From: a virus
DNA: 35,178 nucleotides
IMG/VR virus record: IMGVR_UViG_3300047359_000144
Span: 1-35,178 of that record
Direction: 5' to 3' (one strand)
In this document: in pieces, positions 2,010-23,618 of the stretch
Layout of the letters: every line of letters starts with the position of its first letter
How positions within the stretch are numbered: the first letter of the stretch is position 1
Notes under the pieces: generated by a model
Told to the model about the DNA's origin: nothing
Databases searched by the model: none
The model's input: the letters and a program-made list of their open reading frames with translations, nothing else
Made by a program: the position numbers and the translations under genes

Positions 2010-3680
2010 ATGTCTGCCCTTACTGATTTTTTACAGTTTATAAATCGAACAAACCGTGATTTAGGAATGCTTCAAGAAGCACAACGAATGGCGGGCGATA
2101 AAGATTTATTAGACGAAAATACTGGTGACACTCCAATAGGAGAGCTTGACCCCGGCTTAGCAGAAGAAAGTGTTTGGGACATGCTTACTTCTATTATGGC
2201 AGGGACTCAAGGCACTATTGAAGGTCTTGACCCAGAAACTATAGATGCTCTTCAAACTGCTTTAGAAGGTGTTAATGACGAAGAATTACGTACTGTAGCT
2301 GCAGAAATACTTGAGGCAGGTGGTTATCAAGAATGGTTAGCACAACAACCTACAGGTGACCCCGGCCCAGTAAAAGGAGACCCTCCAAAACAAGCTCCTA
2401 TACCTCAACCTGAGCCTGAACCTGAGCCACCAGAACAAAGAACCATTAGCTTAGAAGACTTTCTAGATATTTATTCTGATAACCCAGATGATGATAATTA
2501 TCTTGACCCTGAAGAGTACATGGAAGGTGGAACATACACTGATCCTGAGACAGGTGTTATTTATGTTATAAACATTCCTCCTACATTAGAACCTGAGCCA
2601 GAGCCTGAGCCAGAAGGTGGTGGAGGCGGTGGTGAGCCAGAGCCACAACCTGAGCCAGAACCTGAGCCAGAACCTGAGCCAGAACCTGAGCCACAACCAG
2701 AGCCTCAACCTGAGCCAGAACCGGAACCAGAAGGTGGTGACGCTGGAACTACTGGGGTAGTTATAGGAGAAGACGACGACTGGGTATATCAAGGTAATGG
2801 TATATTTAGAAGAGAGTCTGACGGTGCTGTTATTGATGTAAACAACCCAAACAGTGATTATTACGATCCTGATTATGATTCTAACAACGACCCTTATGTT
2901 ATTGGCGACATTTATGGCGGTCCGGGTCAAGTTGCTGAACCAGAGCCTGAACCAGAGCCTGACCCTCTTATAACATGTCCTGAAGGTTTTGAATACAACG
3001 ATCTCTTTGGTGCTTGTATGCCAATAGAGTTTGAACCAGAGCCAGAACCAGAGCCACAACCAGAGCCTCAACCAGAGCCTCAACCAGAGCCACAACCAGA
3101 GCCACAACCAGAGCCTCAACCAGAGCCTCAACCAGAGCCACAACCAGAGCCTCAACCAGAGCCTCAACCAGAGCCTCAACCAGAGCCTCAACCAGAGCCA
3201 CAACCAGAGCCTCAACCAGAGCCTCAACCAGAGCCACAACCTGAGCCTCAACCAGAGCCACAACCAGAGCCTCAACCAGAGCCACAACCAGAGCCTCAAC
3301 CAGAGCCTCAACCAGAGCCACAACCAGAGCCAGCTCCTGCTCCAGCTCCTGAGCCACAACCTGAGCCACAACCTGAGCCGGGTACTGGAGGCGACGGAGA
3401 CGGAGAAGGTACTGGTACTGGAGATGGAACGGGTACTGGAACAGGGACGGGAACCGGAGATGGTAATGGAGATGGTGATGGTGATGGGACAGGAGACGGT
3501 AACGGTTTAGGAAGCGGTATGTTATCTGGTACTCCTTTTGAAACTGACGGTGTGTCTCAGTTTGGAATTGCGTACCAAACTCCTCAGATACGACAAATTG
3601 AAATGCCTTATACAGATTATAACCAAGAGCTTTTAGCAATGATTGAAAGACTTACAAATAATAGAGGGATGCTCACGTGA
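2010..3680 (+). CDS. Pro-Glu-Gln repeat protein, likely virion component
   Basis: This is a 556-residue protein of unknown function. Residues 1-130 are acidic and probably folded. From about 130 onward, folded-looking acidic blocks alternate with (EP)n and (PEPQ)n tracts. The longest tract covers about residues 347-440, followed by a PAPAPAP patch and a Gly/Asp/Thr-rich linker (GDGTGTGTG type). A short conserved-looking C-terminus then resembles ordinary protein. Strict Pro-X alternation favours an extended polyproline rod, as in TonB. It lies between the holin and the tail-tube gene, and its stop overlaps the GTG start of the next gene. A tail or ejection role is a guess from position. Confidence 0.85.
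3057..3331 (+). repeat. 12-bp tandem repeat encoding PEPQ
   Basis: About 23 copies of CAACCAGAGCC(T/A) run head to tail, nearly identical at the DNA level, each giving Gln-Pro-Glu-Pro. Near-perfect identity, including synonymous positions, implies recent expansion by slippage or recombination. Copy number may be collapsed in the assembly. Shorter, more degenerate versions occur at about 2587-2733 and 2937-2966. Confidence 0.95.
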
Positions 3681-16191: not shown

Positions 16192-17823
16192 TCAGTGAGT
16201 TTCTGCCCACGTTGTTCCAATTTGGAATTCTCCGTCAAGGGGGCATCTGAGGTTAAAGTGAACCCCTGCCGCCTTGAGGCATTCAACTGCAAGCCAACCG
16301 TACTTCTCTGCTTGGTCTGCAACCACCTCCGATTGTACTTCATCATGTATGTTTCCTACAAAGTTGTAGTCTAGCTTCCACTGCGTTGCGTAGTCGTCCA
16401 GTATGACTAAGGCCTTCTTCATTACGATGGCTCCTGCCGCCTGTAACAGGGTGTTCAATGCAGCATGTTCAGATCTAACTCTAAGTCTTCGACCGTCAAG
16501 TCCTGTGAGATAGCCTCTCCCAGAAGCTCTAGCAACGCGTTCTCGTAGACTTTCAAGAGCAGGTGTATTTGATAGAAATCGTCGCTTAAGATGTGCGCCG
16601 TCTTTTGCGCTTCCGCCAACGATAGTTCCGATCTTTGCATCTCCTGCTCCGTAGAGGAAAGCGTAGATGAAAGTCTTAGCTTGAGGTCTTGTTTCAAGCC
16701 CTGCAGCCATTTGGTTTCTGGTGTGTATGTCTTCGGTGAGGAGGACATTGGTAAACTCCTTATCGTCCATGTAATGTGCCAACATTCGTAGCTCAAGGCC
16801 ACTAGCGTCGAAACCTACTAGCTTCTTCCCTTCAGGTACAGTCCAGCAGGAGCGACACTCGTGCCCATACGGGCTGTAGCTTGCTGGGACTTGGGCCATG
16901 TTGGGACTCTGGTGGGTCATACGTCCAGTGACTGCGCCGTTGCTAATGACACGACCATGAACTCTACCGTCGTCCTGCAAGTGTTCTAGCCATGAGTGTA
17001 CCTGTGCGTATCTCTTTTGTAGCATCAAGTATTCACTAACTGACTTAGCCTCTGGCAGGTCGATGGTGTCTAGTACAGCCTCATCAACGATGGGATTCCC
17101 TTTCTCCGTAACTTTGTCAAAGACCACACCAAGCGTCGATAGCCTACGCGCAATCTGTTGTCTAGATCCGACATTGAAGATCTCAACTTTGTCTTTGAGA
17201 CGCTTACCAGTTTTCTCAGACCACCTCTCATGTACAATCGGAGGAAACTTCTCTTGTAGTTCCTCTTCAATTTCATTCATTCTCTCCTTAAATGTTGCTA
17301 ATAATTCACGCGCCAGTTGCTGGTCCAAGACCCAACCGTTGCGCTCCTGTTGCTGGACTATGTACTGCACCTTGTGTTCCAGCTCAATACACTCAGGGTC
17401 AAACCCAGACATGTCTCTGGTCAGACTCTTGTGCACTGCTTCTGTGACTGCTACGTCCTGTATGCAGTAGTCGATCATCTCCTCAGACAACCTAGACCAA
17501 TCACTGTGGTCACCTTTTGGGAAGCCCAAGGTCTCACCCCATGACCGCAGAGAGTGTCCACCCTGTCTACTAGGGTCAAACAGGCGTGACAACACCAGTG
17601 TGTCCACTATGCGCTCAGGGGCCACAGAGATCCCCCAGAGACGTTTTAGTACTGGTAGGTCATAACCTATCAGGTTGTGCCCACAAACGCTCACAGAGCC
17701 TTCTAGGGTCTTTCTGAGCGACCTTTGGTCTAGGTGTACCTCAGTTTCTCCGTTTTCCCGTGTTACAACACACCAAATGGTGTCGGGAGTCAGGCCGTTG
17801 GCTTCCAAGTCAAGGTAGATCAA
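16192..17823 (-). CDS. Family A DNA polymerase with proofreading domain
   Basis: The product has 543 residues, short compared with T7 gp5 (704). The 3'-5' exonuclease is present: Asp5 and Glu7 (YLDLEANG), Asp55 (GYDLPVL), and Tyr119/Asp123 (YCIQDV). Polymerase motif A contains Asp339 (DASGLELRMLAHY). Motif B is RPQAKTFIYAFLYGAG with Lys383 and Tyr387. Motif C is His493-Asp494-Glu495. Tyr387 matches T7 Tyr526 and E. coli position 762, a state associated in the literature with lytic, fast-replicating phages. No long thioredoxin-binding insertion is apparent, which accounts for some of the missing length. The start overlaps the helicase stop by 4 bases (ATGA). Confidence 0.95.
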   Translation of the reverse strand: MIYLDLEANGLTPDTIWCVVTRENGETEVHLDQRSLRKTLEGSVSVCGHNLIGYDLPVLKRLWGISVAPERIVDTLVLSRLFDPSRQGGHSLRSWGETLGFPKGDHSDWSRLSEEMIDYCIQDVAVTEAVHKSLTRDMSGFDPECIELEHKVQYIVQQQERNGWVLDQQLARELLATFKERMNEIEEELQEKFPPIVHERWSEKTGKRLKDKVEIFNVGSRQQIARRLSTLGVVFDKVTEKGNPIVDEAVLDTIDLPEAKSVSEYLMLQKRYAQVHSWLEHLQDDGRVHGRVISNGAVTGRMTHQSPNMAQVPASYSPYGHECRSCWTVPEGKKLVGFDASGLELRMLAHYMDDKEFTNVLLTEDIHTRNQMAAGLETRPQAKTFIYAFLYGAGDAKIGTIVGGSAKDGAHLKRRFLSNTPALESLRERVARASGRGYLTGLDGRRLRVRSEHAALNTLLQAAGAIVMKKALVILDDYATQWKLDYNFVGNIHDEVQSEVVADQAEKYGWLAVECLKAAGVHFNLRCPLDGEFQIGTTWAETH

Positions 17824-19433
17824 AAGTCATCTCCTATGTGTGGATTAGCTACTTCAGACAGACGACCCGTGGTGCGGTCATAGGCCAACCAACAGGCAGG
17901 CCCAGTTTCTCCGGTGTACCGATTCTTGAGAACCCTAACCGTTGTTGTATTACGTACGTCCTCGTTCTCATTCTGTTGATCCCGTTCCATGCCGATGACA
18001 ATGTCGGACAACTGAGCGATTGCTTGAGAACCCCGAAGTTCACCCAAGCTGATCTGGGCACCGTCCTCGTGTGCCTTACCTTGGGATCGTCTTAGGTGTG
18101 ACACGAGGAACAGACAAATGCCTGTCTCTGCCACTAAGGTCCGTAGCTTGGTCATAATCTCGTCTATGGCTTTTCTTTCGTCTCCTGACTCTTGGGAAGA
18201 CACGACGATTGACAAGTGGTCCAATATGACGTACCGGCAGTCAAGCGCTTTTGCCATATAGCGAACACGGGCGAGGAGGTTATCTGCTGAAGTTGACCCC
18301 CAATGGTCGAATAGGTAGTAACGTCCTGTTCCCAGTGTGCTCTCCCAAAACGGTCGTAGTTGGTCCACAGGCGTGTCCTCTTCCAAGTGTAGAGGCCTGT
18401 TTGCCGCCACCGACATGATACCAAGCGTTGTTCGGGCCAGATCTTCCTCAAGCGCCAAGACTCCAATATTGCCTTCGCATCGGCGTAGAAGATCGTACTC
18501 AATTTCTCTGATAAATTGGGACTTTCCCATACCACTGCCGCTAGTGATCGTGACGAGTTCATAGGGTCTATGTCCTCTGGTTATGTGATTAAGGCCTTCC
18601 CAAGGGTACGGGATGGACTTCACGTTTCTCTTTTCTACTAGCTTGTCCCATGTGTCAGTGCCAGCTATGATGCCATCGGGCCTGTAGACCTTCGCATTCC
18701 ACCAGTGTTGCGTAAAGTCCTTGACCCTGTTCGCCATGAGCATGTCACCAGCGTCCTTCAGGGGTAGCTTGCAGATCTTAAGCTTGTCGGGACTGAAGAG
18801 GTCCTTGACCTGCTCTACTGCTTCTTCTCCTGCCTTGTCATTGTCAAAGCAGAGAACTACCGTGTCGTACCCTTCGAGCCACTCTAGCTGGGCCTTGATC
18901 TCCTTGGCGGCATTACCTGCGCCTGACCGTAGAGACACAACGTCCCACTGCTTACCTGACATCTCATAGATCGCCAAGGCGTCCAGTTCGCCCTCAGTAA
19001 TCGTTATGTAGGTATCTCTATTGCACTGTTGTTGTCCGAAGAAGCCGACGTTGCTTACGTCCCCCATTGACATGAAGCCTTTGGTCTTGACCTCGCGTAC
19101 CTTTGCCGCGCACAGGTCTCCCGTGGACATGTCGTAGTAGGGGTAGTAGTGTTTCTCTATTTCACCCGTGGAAGTGTACTCAACGGTGACCCCGTAGCGC
19201 CCACAGGTGTCCTGAGATAAGCGCCGTTGGGGTATGCTTGAGACCACTCCCCTGAAATTAAGGGGCTTGGCCTTGGGTAATTCTGAGGTCATGCCTTGGT
19301 CTCCACCGTGAACGTGATAGTCGCAACCAGCGCCAAAACAATGTTGGCCCCCGTCGTCGTAGATAGCGAGAGCGTCCGAAGAACCACACTCCGGACAACT
19401 CTCGTGTCTTAGGAACTTAGAAGTCTGCGGCAT
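17820..19433 (-). CDS. Bifunctional primase-helicase (T7 gp4-like)
   Basis: The product has 537 residues. The domains in order are: a zinc ribbon with Cys13/Cys16 and Cys32/Cys37 (CPECGSSDA and HCFGAGC); a TOPRIM primase with Glu148 (ITEGELDALAIYE) and Asp197/Asp199 (CFDNDKAG); and a RecA-type hexameric helicase with Walker A GSGMGKS (299-305), Walker B YVILDHLS (Asp405) and the sensor-like LVSHLRR. It unwinds the fork and lays primers for the polymerase encoded next. The second zinc pair is CX4C where T7 has CX2C. It overlaps the SSB gene by 17 bases. Confidence 0.95.
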   Translation of the reverse strand: MPQTSKFLRHESCPECGSSDALAIYDDGGQHCFGAGCDYHVHGGDQGMTSELPKAKPLNFRGVVSSIPQRRLSQDTCGRYGVTVEYTSTGEIEKHYYPYYDMSTGDLCAAKVREVKTKGFMSMGDVSNVGFFGQQQCNRDTYITITEGELDALAIYEMSGKQWDVVSLRSGAGNAAKEIKAQLEWLEGYDTVVLCFDNDKAGEEAVEQVKDLFSPDKLKICKLPLKDAGDMLMANRVKDFTQHWWNAKVYRPDGIIAGTDTWDKLVEKRNVKSIPYPWEGLNHITRGHRPYELVTITSGSGMGKSQFIREIEYDLLRRCEGNIGVLALEEDLARTTLGIMSVAANRPLHLEEDTPVDQLRPFWESTLGTGRYYLFDHWGSTSADNLLARVRYMAKALDCRYVILDHLSIVVSSQESGDERKAIDEIMTKLRTLVAETGICLFLVSHLRRSQGKAHEDGAQISLGELRGSQAIAQLSDIVIGMERDQQNENEDVRNTTTVRVLKNRYTGETGPACWLAYDRTTGRLSEVANPHIGDDF

Positions 19434-19794
19434 CGCCTACGGCAATCTCTGCTTCCTCTAGTACTTTGACCGCCTCAAGGTAGGTTGCTACGCCATGCAC
19501 TGGGTGAGGCTGACCCAGCTTGTACTTCAGGCGGACTGTGGAGTTGTATGGGACTTCTCCGGTATAGGGTGTACCCTCTGCGTCAAAGACCTTGATCTCG
19601 TACTTTGATTTAAACTTGCGTTGCTTGTTGCCTTGGTAGTCCTTGATCTTGACACCGTTGGCCGCAAGCTCTGCAGCATCGTCTTCTGACATTGTGATGG
19701 TCATGGAGTAGGCTCCAGTAGACTGACCGTTGAACACGTCATGTGCAGTCAGGTTGCTGAAGTTAACTACGCCTTCTACTGTTGTTGCTGTCAT
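19417..19794 (-). CDS. Single-stranded DNA-binding protein, gp2.5-like
   Basis: The product has 125 residues and is beta-rich, starting MTATTVEGVVNFSNLTAHDV. Its C-terminus is acidic and ends in Phe (AVGDAADF), as in T7 gp2.5, where the final Phe and acidic tail contact helicase and polymerase. It is much shorter than T7 gp2.5 (232 residues). The gene heads the replication operon and has its own promoter at 19851-19879, a leader of about 50 bases and a GGAG ribosome site. The assignment rests on composition, tail and position rather than a strong motif. Confidence 0.78.
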   Translation of the reverse strand: MTATTVEGVVNFSNLTAHDVFNGQSTGAYSMTITMSEDDAAELAANGVKIKDYQGNKQRKFKSKYEIKVFDAEGTPYTGEVPYNSTVRLKYKLGQPHPVHGVATYLEAVKVLEEAEIAVGDAADF

Positions 19795-19850: not shown

Positions 19851-19879
19851 AGTATACACTAAATGAATTTACCTGTCAA
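19851..19879 (-). promoter_or_regulatory. Consensus sigma70 promoter of the replication operon
   Basis: On the - strand, TTGACA, an exact 17-base spacer, then TATACT. It lies just upstream of the SSB gene, and its -35 is inside the last codons of the small membrane-protein gene before it. Transcription should start near 19844. It separates the early small-gene operon from the replication genes while letting host polymerase read both. Confidence 0.85.
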
Positions 19880-20011
19880 AAAAGAATCTATGATTTGCAC
19901 ACAAGTGTACATAATGAACATCATAAACCCTATACCCCCAGCAGGACAGATCACATTGGCTTTCCACGGGTTGTCCCGTATCCACTGCTCTAACTGCTGT
20001 TCCGTCATCAT
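19859..20011 (-). CDS. Small membrane protein (50 residues)
   Basis: The product starts MMTEQQLEQWIRDNPWKANV and has a hydrophobic segment at about residues 20-44 (VICPAGGIGFMMFIMYTCVQ then IIDSFL), so it probably has one membrane helix. Its first ATG overlaps the upstream stop (ATGA), which decides the start; a second ATG follows at once. It is the last gene of the early operon. Small phage early membrane proteins often act in superinfection exclusion or host takeover, but nothing in this sequence proves that. Confidence 0.7.
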   Translation of the reverse strand: MMTEQQLEQWIRDNPWKANVICPAGGIGFMMFIMYTCVQIIDSFLTGKFI

Positions 20012-20286
20012 ACTATATTCACATACTCCTCGTTAATGATTGTCTGCACATGTACGTACCCTTCGGGCCAGTACGTGTAGGACTCTGCGAGTGCTTTGGC
20101 TGTCCTGCGTACTGAGGCCTCAAAGTGTTCGAACATCCCTAGTTCCTCTTTGTAGTACCAGAAGGGTATGCGTAGGACTGGCTCTGCAGGTCCACGTTCC
20201 TCATAGTACACAATGATCTCAGCGTCGTTACCAATGGGGCCGTCATTGCCAAAGTGCTTCGTGTGGTCGTTCTCTGGCTGTTTCAC
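20008..20286 (-). CDS. Unknown early protein, 92 residues
   Basis: The GTG start overlaps the upstream stop (GTGA) and is preceded by GGTGA. The protein is soluble, acidic and rich in aromatics (IPFWYYKEELGMFEHFEASV, then SYTYWPEGYVHVQTII). I see no known domain, no cysteine and no membrane segment. It belongs to a chain of coupled early genes, each overlapping the next by 4 bases. The function is unknown; a host-interaction role would fit its early position. Confidence 0.75.
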   Translation of the reverse strand: MKQPENDHTKHFGNDGPIGNDAEIIVYYEERGPAEPVLRIPFWYYKEELGMFEHFEASVRRTAKALAESYTYWPEGYVHVQTIINEEYVNIV

Positions 20287-20450
20287 TGGTCACCCTCTAG
20301 TTCTATGCTTTGGAACTCTTCGTCTATGTAGTTGTACTCTGAATCATGAATTTCTGTCTTCAGTAGTGCCAACGCTTCGTCCTCTGTTTCTGCAGAGATA
20401 CGGTAGACATGCTCTATTGTTTCGATAGTCTTAATACAATATGTACTCAT
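20283..20450 (-). CDS. Unknown early protein, 55 residues
   Basis: The translation is MSTYCIKTIETIEHVYRISA, followed by ETEDEALALLKTEIHDSEYN and YIDEEFQSIELEGDQ. It is strongly acidic with one cysteine, and probably alpha/beta. Both ends overlap neighbours by 4 bases (ATGA before it, GTGA after it), which is strong evidence that it is a translated gene. No family is recognised. Very acidic small early proteins include known DNA-mimic inhibitors, but this one is only a candidate by composition. Confidence 0.72.
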   Translation of the reverse strand: MSTYCIKTIETIEHVYRISAETEDEALALLKTEIHDSEYNYIDEEFQSIELEGDQ

Positions 20451-20698
20451 GATTCACCCTCCGGTAGTTCGTCACTGGCTAGGAACAAGATCTTGTCCAG
20501 TGTGTTCTTGGACATCACCACGTTGCCACGGTCGTCCAGAGACAGCTCTAGGTCCTTGCGTAGCACAAAGGGTATGCCACCCCAAGGGTCCCGCCTCATG
20601 ATGTCATTTGTCACTGTGCGGGCTTGTGTGTAGCCGAAGCAGTACACACTGTAGTCGCCACCGTCGACAACATAGATGCTCTTTTCGTCTATAAACAT
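20447..20698 (-). CDS. Unknown early protein, 83 residues
   Basis: The product starts MFIDEKSIYVVDGGDYSVYC and is beta-rich at the N-terminus, with an acidic end (ASDELPEGES). A middle segment, VVMSKNTLDKILFLA, could be a helix. A good AGGAG lies upstream of the start. In front of it is a 72-base spacer with palindromes (20711-20733), unusual in this tightly packed operon, so the gene may head a separately controlled subgroup. No domain is recognised. Confidence 0.75.
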   Translation of the reverse strand: MFIDEKSIYVVDGGDYSVYCFGYTQARTVTNDIMRRDPWGGIPFVLRKDLELSLDDRGNVVMSKNTLDKILFLASDELPEGES

Positions 20699-20710
20699 AA
20701 GTTTACTCCT

Positions 20711-20774
20711 GTAGTACTACTGTAGTTAACTACTACTGCTTCTACTTTAGTATATATACCTAAGTATACCTTAG
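20711..20774 (-). promoter_or_regulatory. Palindrome cluster, possible operator in the early operon
   Basis: Two adjacent perfect palindromes share half-sites: GTAGTACTAC (20711-20720) and GTAGTTAACTAC (20722-20733). A further inverted repeat, CTAAG-N5-CTTAG, lies at 20760-20774. Between them is an AT-rich stretch with TATACT-like -10 words, but no matching -35 was found. The cluster lies directly before the AGGAG of the 83-residue gene, so it could bind a dimeric regulator or fold in the RNA. Confidence 0.4.
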
Positions 20775-20962
20775 TAGAGGGTATCATAGTTTTCGTCTTC
20801 TGTAAATATCTCATATTGGTAATATTCCATAGTTTCTGAGTCTACTCCCGAAGAAGCAACAGCAGAAAGACAAATACCACATAAGTCCAAAAAATCACCA
20901 TGTGCGTCCTTTTTAGTCAATTCTGATTCCTCTAGTATTCGATTACATGCCTTACAACGCAT
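20771..20962 (-). CDS. Small zinc-finger-like early protein
   Basis: The product has 63 residues and starts MRCKACNRILEESELTKKDA. CKAC near the start and LCGIC in the middle give two CX2C pairs, the pattern of a treble-clef or zinc-ribbon fold. The rest is acidic and aromatic, ending EIFTEDENYDTLY. I chose the ATG at 20962, which has GGAGG nine bases upstream; the frame is open further but lacks a site. It overlaps the previous gene by 11 bases. A nucleic-acid or protein-binding role is plausible; the family is not recognised. Confidence 0.75.
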   Translation of the reverse strand: MRCKACNRILEESELTKKDAHGDFLDLCGICLSAVASSGVDSETMEYYQYEIFTEDENYDTLY

Positions 20963-21176
20963 CTCTCCAGTCCTCCCCATGTATCTCAATCATCATACGC
21001 TCTAGGTGTCTAGTGTTGAGCCTAGAGTATTTCCGTAGACAGTCCAAGCGAAACATCTCCGTTTCAAACTCGACTATGTGGTCTATCATGGCTTGCTCCT
21101 CTGGGTCTCTGGAAGGCTCTGGGATGTCCCCAGAGTCCTCCCCATAGTAACCCCTTTCGTATTCCTCAAACGTCAT
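20952..21176 (-). CDS. Unknown acidic early protein, 74 residues
   Basis: The product starts MTFEEYERGYYGEDSGDIPE. The first 30 residues are acidic and probably disordered; residues 31-74 are helical (MIDHIVEFETEMFRLDCLRK, then HLERMMIEIHGEDWRDAL). The open frame extends upstream, but this ATG fits the operon because it sits 11 bases inside the previous gene. The downstream zinc-finger gene starts inside its last codons. No family is recognised. Confidence 0.7.
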   Translation of the reverse strand: MTFEEYERGYYGEDSGDIPEPSRDPEEQAMIDHIVEFETEMFRLDCLRKYSRLNTRHLERMMIEIHGEDWRDAL

Positions 21177-21327
21177 TGTAGGCCCCTTGCATCCGTTGTA
21201 TAAGCTCGTCGATGATCTTCTGCTCCTCCTCCTTCCACTCCTCAATATCGTCAGGGTATACAGGAGTATCGTCTTCGTAGTACTCCTGATACTCGTCTGC
21301 CCACATTTCCCATGATTCTCTAGCCAT
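21166..21327 (-). CDS. Unknown acidic early protein, 53 residues
   Basis: The product is MARESWEMWADEYQEYYEDD, then TPVYPDDIEEWKEEEQKIID and ELIQRMQGAYNDV. It is extremely acidic and rich in Trp and Tyr, with a C-terminal helix. It overlaps its downstream neighbour by 11 bases and its upstream neighbour by 8. The high negative charge makes it one of the better DNA-mimic or inhibitor candidates of the block, although composition alone is weak evidence. Confidence 0.7.
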   Translation of the reverse strand: MARESWEMWADEYQEYYEDDTPVYPDDIEEWKEEEQKIIDELIQRMQGAYNDV

Positions 21328-21439
21328 CTTTTGTTTCTCCTAGTACGTGTACAGCTATCCAGAGGGAGAGCAGAGGGATACCCACTACCCACCCAAACAC
21401 TAGAGCATAGAAGCCCCAGAATAAAACATCGTTTATCAT
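21320..21439 (-). CDS. Small membrane protein (39 residues)
   Basis: The product starts MINDVLFWGFYALVFGWVVG and is one long hydrophobic segment (residues about 5-34) with a short charged tail (GETKDG). I chose the ATG at 21439 because it overlaps the previous stop (ATGA). The same frame is open further upstream, but that part is the coding region of the neighbour in another frame. The protein would lie in the inner membrane. It is adjacent to a second one-helix protein and the two may work together. Confidence 0.7.
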   Translation of the reverse strand: MINDVLFWGFYALVFGWVVGIPLLSLWIAVHVLGETKDG

Positions 21440-21537
21440 TCGTCTATGTCTCCTTTTATGTATAACCAGAGGGTGATTATACCGGACGCCGCTAGTAATA
21501 ACAACACGTCCCAAAATGGTTGCCAGCTCTCAAACAT
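21436..21537 (-). CDS. Small membrane protein (33 residues)
   Basis: The product starts MFESWQPFWDVLLLLAASGI and continues ITLWLYIKGDIDE. It has a single membrane helix at about residues 9-27 with a charged tail. Its stop overlaps the start of the next small membrane protein (ATGA). This paired arrangement and the tight spacing support it as a true gene despite its size. The function is unknown. Confidence 0.65.
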   Translation of the reverse strand: MFESWQPFWDVLLLLAASGIITLWLYIKGDIDE

Positions 21538-21539
21538 CT

Positions 21540-21698
21540 CTAGTCGTCCTCCTCAAACAGTCCCAAGTCCTCAGCACAGTAGATGCACACGTGCTGATCC
21601 ACGGCTGTAGGCTGTGCCTCCATCGTGTCTAGGTGTAGCACGTAGCTCTCGTTTCTGTACCACTCGCCACATTCTGTACACTCGTAAACCTCTCCCAT
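21540..21698 (-). CDS. Small zinc-ribbon-like early protein
   Basis: The product has 52 residues, starting MGEVYECTECGEWYRNESYV. Cys7/Cys10 and Cys38/Cys41 form two CX2C knuckles about 27 residues apart (CTEC and CIYC), the spacing of a zinc ribbon; the tail is acidic (LGLFEEDD). It lies two bases before the next small gene. It could bind nucleic acid or a host protein. It is the second CX2C/CX2C protein of the early block, unrelated in sequence to the one at 20771-20962 apart from the metal site. Confidence 0.7.
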   Translation of the reverse strand: MGEVYECTECGEWYRNESYVLHLDTMEAQPTAVDQHVCIYCAEDLGLFEEDD

Positions 21699-21719
21699 GT
21701 CTCTAGTCCTCCTCTAGTG

Positions 21720-21827
21720 TTATCTGGGCCATTCGTTTCTACCCCTCTCGTATCCCGTGGCATGTCCGACTATCCAGCCGAAGCCGAAGCAGGCTCCCAT
21801 TAGTGCCACGGTCATCAGTGTTTCCAT
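21720..21827 (-). CDS. Small membrane protein (35 residues)
   Basis: The product starts METLMTVALMGACFGFGWIV and ends GHATGYERGRNEWPR. It has one hydrophobic helix with a GxxxGxGxxxG-like face and a basic tail. A strong ribosome site (AGGAGGG) lies just before the ATG. It starts 2 bases after the preceding stop. The function is unknown; the glycine-rich helix could pack against another membrane helix. Confidence 0.65.
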   Translation of the reverse strand: METLMTVALMGACFGFGWIVGHATGYERGRNEWPR

Positions 21828-21829
21828 GT

Positions 21830-21958
21830 CTAACCCTCCTCTAAAAACGCCGTGAGACGCTCCACAGGAAGCTCCCTCAATAGTTCTTCAATCGCAGTAA
21901 GGTCTCCAAATTGTAGGTCCTCTTTTATCTGCTCAATTACCTCATCAATTATGTTCAT
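21830..21958 (-). CDS. Small acidic helical early protein
   Basis: The product is 42 residues: MNIIDEVIEQIKEDLQFGDL, then TAIEELLRELPVERLTAFLE and EG. It appears to be two amphipathic helices joined at FGDLTAIEELL. Proteins of this exact style occur, as I recall, in many marine phages and are always annotated hypothetical. The start overlaps the previous stop (ATGA). Confidence 0.7.
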   Translation of the reverse strand: MNIIDEVIEQIKEDLQFGDLTAIEELLRELPVERLTAFLEEG

Positions 21959-22170
21959 CGTCGTAATCTCCGTATAAATCTCATGACAGACCAAAATCTC
22001 CGGTGGTTCTTGTCAGTGTCTAGGAATCCCAAGCGGTCCCGTAGACCGCATAGGAGCCGTGAGTAGTTGTTGATGGTGTACTCTGGGTACATGAAGCCCT
22101 TGCGTGAGTCGTAGATGTCCCACACGTGGTCCTCGTGGTTGTACCAGATTGTCCAGTGTCCAAATGTCAT
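21955..22170 (-). CDS. Unknown early protein, 71 residues
   Basis: The product starts MTFGHWTIWYNHEDHVWDIY and ends in a basic cluster (RFIRRLRR). It is rich in aromatics and histidine at the N-terminus and becomes basic towards the C-terminus, so it may contact nucleic acid or membrane. It overlaps both neighbours by 4 bases (ATGA). I do not recognise a domain. Confidence 0.75.
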   Translation of the reverse strand: MTFGHWTIWYNHEDHVWDIYDSRKGFMYPEYTINNYSRLLCGLRDRLGFLDTDKNHRRFWSVMRFIRRLRR

Positions 22171-22406
22171 GCTGTAGCCCTCGCGTTGATGCTGTCCTGT
22201 GTCAGTGTGTCACAGTAGTCCGCACCTCTGGACTTCAGCCACTGGTTAATGTGCTTTGACGTGGTGACGCTCCAGAAGTCCTCTGTCTTGAAGTAGTGAC
22301 CCTCTGGCGTCTGCAGTGCTACCGGTGTCTCGTAGCTGAAAAACACTGTAGTGCCGTCGGTGAATTCTACCTCTGTCTTGTTACTGCCTAGTTGTCGTAG
22401 TTGCAT
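22167..22406 (-). CDS. Unknown early protein, 79 residues
   Basis: The product starts MQLRQLGSNKTEVEFTDGTT. The first half is beta-rich (VEFTDGTTVFFSYETPVALQ), and the second half holds TEDFWSVTTSKHINQWLKS, a pattern I have seen in small phage hypothetical proteins. There is no cysteine pair or membrane helix. It follows an 80-base spacer that contains a long hairpin (22434-22481), so its translation or mRNA end may be controlled there. Confidence 0.75.
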   Translation of the reverse strand: MQLRQLGSNKTEVEFTDGTTVFFSYETPVALQTPEGHYFKTEDFWSVTTSKHINQWLKSRGADYCDTLTQDSINARATA

Positions 22407-22433
22407 GGTCTTAAGCCCTCCAGTGGCTCGTGT

Positions 22434-22481
22434 GTTGACTCACTGCAGAGGACTCTAGCGAATCCCCTGCGATTAGTCAAC
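22434..22481 (-). promoter_or_regulatory. Long intergenic hairpin in the early transcript
   Basis: GTTGACT (22434-22440) pairs perfectly with AGTCAAC (22475-22481). Inside, GCAG-A-GG pairs with CCCCTGC across a small symmetric internal loop, leaving a loop of about 12 bases. No U-tract follows, so it is not a classic terminator. It may be an RNase III site, an mRNA stabiliser or a protein-binding structure. Confidence 0.5.
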
Positions 22482-22485
22482 CTCC

Positions 22486-22815
22486 TTATGCCGCGTATTC
22501 AAACTGGTCAAAGTATTCGTCTGGTCGTGAGTTTATGCACAAGTCCACGTCGATGCCAACCGATCTCAACTCCTTACCGATCTCTTGCATCTCTCGAATA
22601 ATGTAGTTGCGTCTCTTCATCAACTTAACGTGCTCTGGTAGGTCCTGACCGTAACCACTGTTCTGCCACTCGTCGCTGGCGTAGTACTGTGACAGCTCCT
22701 CTAGAATCTCTGACCAGTCGCTGTAGTAAATGGCGTACATCTCAACAGCGGATGACAATGTGCGGTGGCTGTTCTCAAGTGTCTCGTGGAGACCGTAGTT
22801 AACTTGCTTAGTCAT
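22486..22815 (-). CDS. Unknown early protein, 109 residues
   Basis: The product starts MTKQVNYGLHETLENSHRTL. It is helical and acidic, with a Tyr-rich middle (YAIYYSDWSEILEELSQYYA) and a helical second half (KLMKRRNYIIREMQEIGKEL). AGGAG precedes the ATG. It is the second gene of the early operon and the largest protein of the block. No domain is recognised. It is an early host-takeover candidate by position only. Confidence 0.78.
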   Translation of the reverse strand: MTKQVNYGLHETLENSHRTLSSAVEMYAIYYSDWSEILEELSQYYASDEWQNSGYGQDLPEHVKLMKRRNYIIREMQEIGKELRSVGIDVDLCINSRPDEYFDQFEYAA

Positions 22816-22829
22816 GGTTGTTGCTCCTG

Positions 22830-23012
22830 TTATGCGGTTTCTGTTAATGCGTCTCGTAGGACACGTATGTCCGAACGTATGCGGTCTGCTTCGTCTTCTA
22901 GCTCATGGTACCCCGTGACACTAGGCATGTCGTAGGCAAGCGCCACGTTCTCTATGTTCTCTAGTAATCGCTGTTTAAAGTCTAGCCAGCTCTGGATGTC
23001 TAGTTTACACAT
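22830..23012 (-). CDS. First early gene: small helical protein
   Basis: The product has 60 residues from the ATG at 23012 (MCKLDIQSWLDFKQRLLENI); an in-frame ATG at 23027 would add MRIII. Neither start has a strong ribosome site, so the exact start is unsure. The protein is a helical hairpin type, ending ADRIRSDIRVLRDALTETA. It is the first gene leftward of the control region and should be among the earliest made. Its function is unknown. Confidence 0.7.
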   Translation of the reverse strand: MCKLDIQSWLDFKQRLLENIENVALAYDMPSVTGYHELEDEADRIRSDIRVLRDALTETA

Positions 23013-23189
23013 GATAATGATTCTCATCTAGGGGTGGCTTGGGTCCCCGTCTCGCCATGTGTGTAGTAAGCCAGAAACCTAGTTGAGAAACAAGGGTAAA
23101 TATTTCACATAAATAGACTATTGACTGCCGGTATTGTTCCATCCTAATCGCGTGTGCGCGTGTAATAGATAGTGGCCTTGTGTGTAACC

Positions 23190-23255
23190 TGTGGATAATT
23201 AGCCATCCTGGATGTGGATACTTTTGTTAGTGACTACTAACCTATCTGTGGATAA
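23190..23255 (-). other. DnaA-box cluster
   Basis: TGTGGATAA, the complement of the perfect box TTATCCACA, occurs at 23190-23198 and 23247-23255. A one-mismatch copy, TGTGGATAC, lies at 23213-23221. All three have the same orientation within 66 bases. Three such words together are very unlikely by chance and point to recruitment of host DnaA, for replication or for control of the early promoter. Confidence 0.75.
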
Positions 23256-23589: not shown

Positions 23590-23618
23590 TTGACTTTTGT
23601 GTAAACTTATGGTATACT
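23590..23618 (+). promoter_or_regulatory. Sigma70 promoter of the rightward late operon
   Basis: TTGACT (23590-23595), a 17-base spacer ending in TGG, then TATACT (23613-23618). This gives an extended -10 and optimal spacing. The expected start is near 23625, leaving a leader of about 20 bases before the terminase small subunit gene. Its -10 surroundings are identical to the internal promoter at 15015-15043. Confidence 0.82.

Follow-up and report, generated by a model that had tools for sequence, protein, structure and literature searches.

A hypervariable row of small genes upstream of the replication genes of an uncultured marine phage, probably an exchangeable host-interaction module

The DNA analysed here, called the window, is the 35,178-base virus record IMGVR_UViG_3300047359_000144 of IMG/VR (positions 1 to 35,178), which stems from an uncultured marine phage whose replisome is T7-like and in which no phage RNA polymerase was detected. 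Directly upstream of its genes for a single-stranded-DNA-binding protein (SSB), primase-helicase, polymerase and exonuclease, 16 minus-strand frames of 33 to 109 amino acids (aa) lie between positions 23012 and 19859. This block is a row of genuine, mostly coupled small genes, with a retained core and with other positions whose occupants are swapped between close relatives. It is probably a hypervariable early operon that acts as an exchangeable host-interaction module, the word 'early' being taken from its position only.

In 19859-23012, open reading frames (ORFs) with a length of 33 aa or more take up 96.9% of the minus strand, compared to a mean of 39% and a maximum of 69% in 500 dinucleotide shuffles, and a Shine-Dalgarno-like site is present at 13 of the 16 starts, compared to 10% of all ATG and GTG triplets on the minus strand. 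Neighbouring genes overlap by 4 to 11 bases at nine of the 15 junctions (g16 being counted from the ATG at 20011), four junctions are gaps of 2 to 21 bases, and two are larger (g02/g03, 79 bp; g12/g13, 72 bp). Purifying selection was found in 14 of the 16 families, with median ratios of non-synonymous to synonymous substitution rates (dN/dS) of 0.085 to 0.28, the value for SSB being 0.12. A first-pass annotation had described 16 frames of 33-109 residues, most of them joined by 4- to 11-base overlaps, which included four one-helix membrane proteins, two CX2C/CX2C proteins and several very acidic proteins. This description is borne out by the tiling, the ribosome-binding sites and the selection, and both counts are right: the one-helix hydrophobic proteins are g06, g08, g09 and g16, the CX2C...CX2C proteins are g07 and g12, and per 100 residues the net charge of g05, g07, g10 and g14 lies between -21 and -26. 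No relative of g01 (22830-23012) or g05 (21830-21958) was found in any fetched locus, g05 being too short for a scan of the whole collection, and their coding status therefore rests on their position and, for g05, on its Shine-Dalgarno-like site.

Two further frames were considered and rejected as genes. The product of a frame between g12 and g13 (20689-20814, 'MIPSTKV...') is 8 to 38 aa long in most relatives, its start varies between ATG, GTG and CTG, and its ratio of non-synonymous to synonymous polymorphism (pN/pS) is 0.66. A 45-aa frame upstream of the block (23005-23142) has a pN/pS of 0.69 and was assigned to conserved leader DNA.

For comparison, 80 related loci were obtained via SSB, and the 51 of them with at least 2.9 kb upstream of SSB were used for counts of gene content. 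The genes of the block, with their presence in these 51 loci, are as follows.

g01, 22830-23012, minus strand: 60 aa; first gene; orphan, behind a conserved leader after which relatives have other first genes
g02, 22486-22815, minus strand: 109 aa; 9 loci
g03, 22167-22406, minus strand: 79 aa; phrog_5643 (E 1e-27), a family without known function that has homologues among phages of Prochlorococcus and Pectobacterium
g04, 21955-22170, minus strand: 71 aa; basic; 32 loci
g05, 21830-21958, minus strand: 42 aa; acidic; orphan; putative gene
g06, 21720-21827, minus strand: 35 aa; one-helix hydrophobic; 25 loci
g07, 21540-21698, minus strand: 52 aa; CX2C...CX2C, acidic; 9 loci
g08, 21436-21537, minus strand: 33 aa; one-helix hydrophobic; core, 42 loci
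g09, 21320-21439, minus strand: 39 aa; hydrophobic; in relatives the slot between g08 and g10 often holds unrelated hydrophobic proteins
g10, 21166-21327, minus strand: 53 aa; very acidic (net -14); core, 44 loci; two versions of the N-terminal half
g11, 20952-21176, minus strand: 74 aa; acidic; core, 44 loci
g12, 20771-20962, minus strand: 63 aa; CX2C...CX2C; core, 51 loci
g13, 20447-20698, minus strand: 83 aa; core, 43 loci; AlphaFold2 model of moderate confidence, of beta-beta-alpha, beta-beta-beta, alpha order (predicted local distance difference test, pLDDT, 75), with no meaningful match to a solved fold (best Foldseek E 1.2; best VIA Z 4.7)
g14, 20283-20450, minus strand: 55 aa; acidic; DpnD/PcfM-like, with weak local similarity to T7 Gp2
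g15, 20008-20286, minus strand: 92 aa; GTG start; highly conserved; 34 loci
g16, 19859-20011, minus strand: 49-50 aa; one-helix hydrophobic; the -35 element of the SSB promoter lies inside its last codons

Only five families, g08 and g10 to g13, are near-universal (present in at least 80% of the 51 loci), the distribution of g02, g07, g09, g14 and g16 is patchy, and the window alone has g01 and g05. Altogether the 51 loci contain about 120 families, without saturation, and the genes keep a conserved order into which some have been inserted and from which others have been lost. Among the 31 loci having both sides, 68 families were counted in the early 2.9 kb and 12 in the adjacent 2.9 kb of replication genes, a contrast that the raw count overstates because the early side has more and shorter genes and a simple gene caller was used. 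The Jaccard index is a safer measure; in the same loci its mean at an SSB DNA identity of at least 97% is 0.69 for the early side and 0.87 for the replication side. The locus L003, whose SSB gene is 99.2% identical, has nine of 14 called early families in common with the window.

The slots tend to keep the type of their occupants. The positions between g08 and g10 and between g10 and g11 are mostly filled by g09, c11, c22, c41, c60 or c111, which are unrelated hydrophobic or partly hydrophobic proteins. The first gene differs between relatives and stands behind the conserved leader, and the two N-terminal halves of g10 found among relatives are unrelated to each other. An origin of g10 and g11 by duplication was considered and rejected, as no profile similarity was detected between them. 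In one relative (L035), an alternative oxidase (PF01786, E 1.6e-48) is inserted between g15 and SSB, and a slot of one relative contains a protein of the Kyanoviridae Gp96 family; together with the phrog_5643 homologues in Prochlorococcus phages, these are a loose hint of phages having genes in common with cyanophages. The core genes g08 and g10 to g13 are thus retained under purifying selection, and the other positions are slots with exchangeable occupants.

The first-pass annotation had likened the block to early regions that hold host-takeover and anti-defence factors. A function of this kind would fit the position before the replication genes, the open, exchangeable content and the purifying selection, and the proposal is thus partly supported. 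In Pfam, PHROGs, NCBIfam and PDB, no gene of the block reached threshold with a family known to counter restriction or CRISPR or to inhibit RNA polymerase. This result weighs against a host-interaction module, as do the lack of any gene matching a known host-takeover protein at threshold and of an identified promoter for the block itself, the alternative oxidase at the block end of one relative, which indicates that slots can hold metabolic genes too, and the possibility that g01 and g05 may not be genes. In the mechanism that we favour, the host RNA polymerase would transcribe the block first, and each small protein would bind a different host component, preparing the cell or blocking its defences. 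The hydrophobic g06, g08, g09 and g16 would go to the membrane, the zinc-ribbon-like g12 to nucleic acid or the replication machinery, and the acidic proteins to soluble host enzymes, while the fast gene turnover would reflect variation in hosts and defences. As the phage appears to depend on the host RNA polymerase throughout, a complete shut-off in the style of T7 Gp2 is unlikely, and any RNA polymerase effector in the block would need to be selective.

The acidic proteins g10 and g14 had both been put forward as DNA mimics, which would block restriction or other DNA-binding enzymes. Mimics of the Ocr type combine a B-DNA-like shape with a matching charge layout and are usually dimers. The high acidity of the two proteins is kept across relatives, and g10 is predicted to be helical (residues 5-18 and 28-51 in an AlphaFold2 monomer model); with a pLDDT of 75 and a predicted template modelling score (pTM) of 0.36, this two-helix model is of low confidence and too weak to judge mimicry. 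Searches of Pfam, NCBIfam and PDB showed no relation of either protein to a known mimic, g10 has no PHROG relative and no relative of known function, and a negative net charge is common within the block (14 of its 16 proteins). As g14 moreover resembles another fold type, mimicry appears very improbable for the two proteins, and the suggestion is not supported.

At the level of sequence, g14 weakly resembles the beta-beta-alpha type of DpnD/PcfM and T7 Gp2. Ten of the 11 members of its family match Pfam DpnD-PcfM (PF14207), with a best E of 3.5e-4, although the gathering cut-off of 25 bits was not reached by the g14 of the window (15.4) or that of L067 (18.8). Among PDB profiles, g14 matches T7 Gp2 best (E 0.36 and 0.64), with no others below E 0.9, and the alignment spans TIETIEHVYRISAETEDEALALL and a 25-letter protein stretch. 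One might therefore read g14, together with the unrelated families c13 and c36 that occupy other slots, as Gp2-type RNA polymerase modulators. In hhalign comparisons with eight Gp2 sequences, all three gave P values of about 0.001 (g14, 0.0012), compared to 0.0073 for the best of 14 other families, and a probability of 19% was obtained, compared to a highest value of 5% in 60 column shuffles. Four of the seven residues of the acidic strip of Gp2 align with acidic residues of g14, and T7 gene 2 likewise lies just upstream of gene 2.5. However, the similarity is local and below significance for a database search, and the PF16857 profile, which matches T7 Gp2 at 4e-28, did not report g14. The g14 of the window, which contains no Arg after residue 17, lacks equivalents of Arg56 and Arg58, two strand 3 residues that do not vary among the aligned Gp2 sequences; in Gp2, both are needed for binding of the beta-prime jaw, and their substitution abolishes RNA polymerase binding (PMC3778932, PMC3541766). 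In addition, a phage without a detected RNA polymerase of its own has none to take over with, and shutting off the host enzyme would harm it. We consider a Gp2-type function of these proteins improbable; given the missing arginines and the harm of a host shut-off, g14 would rather be a protein of this small-fold type whose target is different or selective.

The features besides the 16 genes to which the following refers are:

23190-23255, minus strand: DnaA-box cluster upstream of the block, with two perfect boxes TTATCCACA and one near-match GTATCCACA
23005-23143, minus strand: conserved non-coding leader (GGCGAGACGGGGACCCAAGCCACCCC...ATGAGAATCATTATCATG), with different first genes behind it in different relatives
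20700-20787, minus strand: cis-element and not a gene of its own, made up of the g12 end, invariant in nucleotides (GATACCCTCTACTAA), and a degenerate repeat array behind it
19851-19879, minus strand: sigma70-type promoter of the SSB/replication operon, TTGACA-17-TATACT
19417-19794, minus strand: Gp2.5-like SSB, first replication gene
17820-19433, minus strand: primase-helicase
16192-17823, minus strand: family-A polymerase

Across 63 distinct relatives, hardly a nucleotide changes in the last codons of g12, GAT-ACC-CTC-TAC-TAA, although the C-terminus before them varies. The 20-mer at the g12 stop was found in at least 119 viral stretches and ends a g12 homologue in 122 of 123 distinct contexts (114 with the strict motif, eight with a divergent but recognisable g12 end). 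The array behind it has a periodicity of 13 bp (z 13.9) and 26 bp (z 7.5) in 16 longer arrays of relatives, that of the window being short and degenerate. The repeats are neither coding nor RNA-structured (mean z of RNA structure in the element -0.5), and an Rfam scan yielded no more than two isrG matches, which were below threshold and lay within a tail gene. In a clade from which g13 to g16 are missing, g12 directly precedes SSB with the array still attached, and in the Zobellviridae MEP401 and MEP402 a weak g12 homologue (E 0.008 and 0.03) abuts the primase gene, just upstream of it. We infer that g12 may bind the element and that replication or transcription may be controlled there. Some relatives (L042, L091, L151, L164 and L168) have a lipoprotein-like frame immediately behind the array, with a hydrophobic stretch that ends in a lipobox-like cysteine.

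These observations also raise the alternative that g12 and the 13-bp array are mainly a replication-control module (initiator and iteron, or operator), the small neighbours being partly replication accessories. It is favoured by g12 being the sole block gene in all loci, by the invariant stop region tied to the array, by the periodicity, by the homologue beside the primase and by the persistence of g12 and array where g13 to g16 are absent, whereas in some relatives the DnaA-box clusters compete with it as a candidate origin, the window has only a short array, and DNA binding by g12 is a prediction. On balance, this alternative to a host-interaction module is possible but doubtful. A narrower proposal, in which g12 would initiate replication, or regulate its origin, for a T7-like replisome that works without phage RNA polymerase, acting on the array at the 3' end of its own gene, possibly with host DnaA upstream, is rather unlikely; if true, replication would start without transcription by a phage RNA polymerase.

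None of 2000 shuffles reached the two perfect DnaA boxes of the window. Several relatives have three to nine boxes at the same place, with three to eight perfect ones, some spaced 11, 12 or 22 bp, and the clusters of L065, L076, L054, L064 and L022 lie at -3.4 to -4.1 kb from SSB. Because the boxes are absent in other relatives and more than 100 further viral contigs contain similar tandem boxes, the cluster is neither universal nor group-specific. None of 12 records yielded a phage gene for DnaA, and the cluster is a possible candidate for an origin dependent on host DnaA. The g12 array and the DnaA boxes would thus provide two origin candidates for phages with a T7-like replisome that apparently lack an RNA polymerase for priming. 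Bacterial genomes were searched with g12 and with a 26-mer of the DnaA array for host identification, without a match. In a 35.8-kb relative (G004), one DnaA-box array is repeated at the two ends, and its genome would accordingly measure about 35.6 kb. As to the SSB promoter, TATACTATTA is kept in 46 of 62 distinct relatives, and a similar site (TTGACT-17-TATACT, 23590-23618) faces the late genes.

The replication genes are on the minus strand, including those for a Cas4-type exonuclease, an endonuclease and a class II-like ribonucleotide reductase, and the packaging, portal, major head and tail genes are on the plus strand. A PF00940 search, in which T7 as positive control gave 1e-110, detected no single-subunit RNA polymerase in the window or in eleven long relatives, records that may be incomplete. 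Among the late genes, a very acidic protein of 556 aa (net -117; 2010-3680, plus strand) has weak PHROG matches only.

The closest cultured polymerases, about 50% identical, are those of the Pelagibacter phages HTVC103P/104P/115P, the portal is distantly related to that of HMO-2011-type phages, and the Zobellviridae are linked by the g12 homologue beside the primase in the Methylophilales phages MEP401/402; in contrast, searches of the phage collection gave no match for g13, for g15 or, at the DNA level, for the block. The genes 0.3 to 2 of T7 are likewise small genes before a Gp2.5-type SSB, a primase-helicase and a family-A polymerase, and g14 is weakly Gp2-like, whereas here no phage RNA polymerase was detected, no Ocr, kinase or Gp2 homologue reached threshold, and a sigma70-type promoter precedes SSB. 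The host takeover module of SPO1, a precedent for such a role, comprises 26 small early genes (PMC6873191). The block is likewise a dense group of small genes, most of them unique, and to judge from its position would also be used early in infection; it differs in replisome type, and no homologous gene was shown. Hypervariable early regions are already known as a kind, of which this block is a well-populated example with two regulatory leads, and its 51 loci, about 120 small families and fixed slots would form a large natural comparative set for phage proteins acting on marine bacteria.

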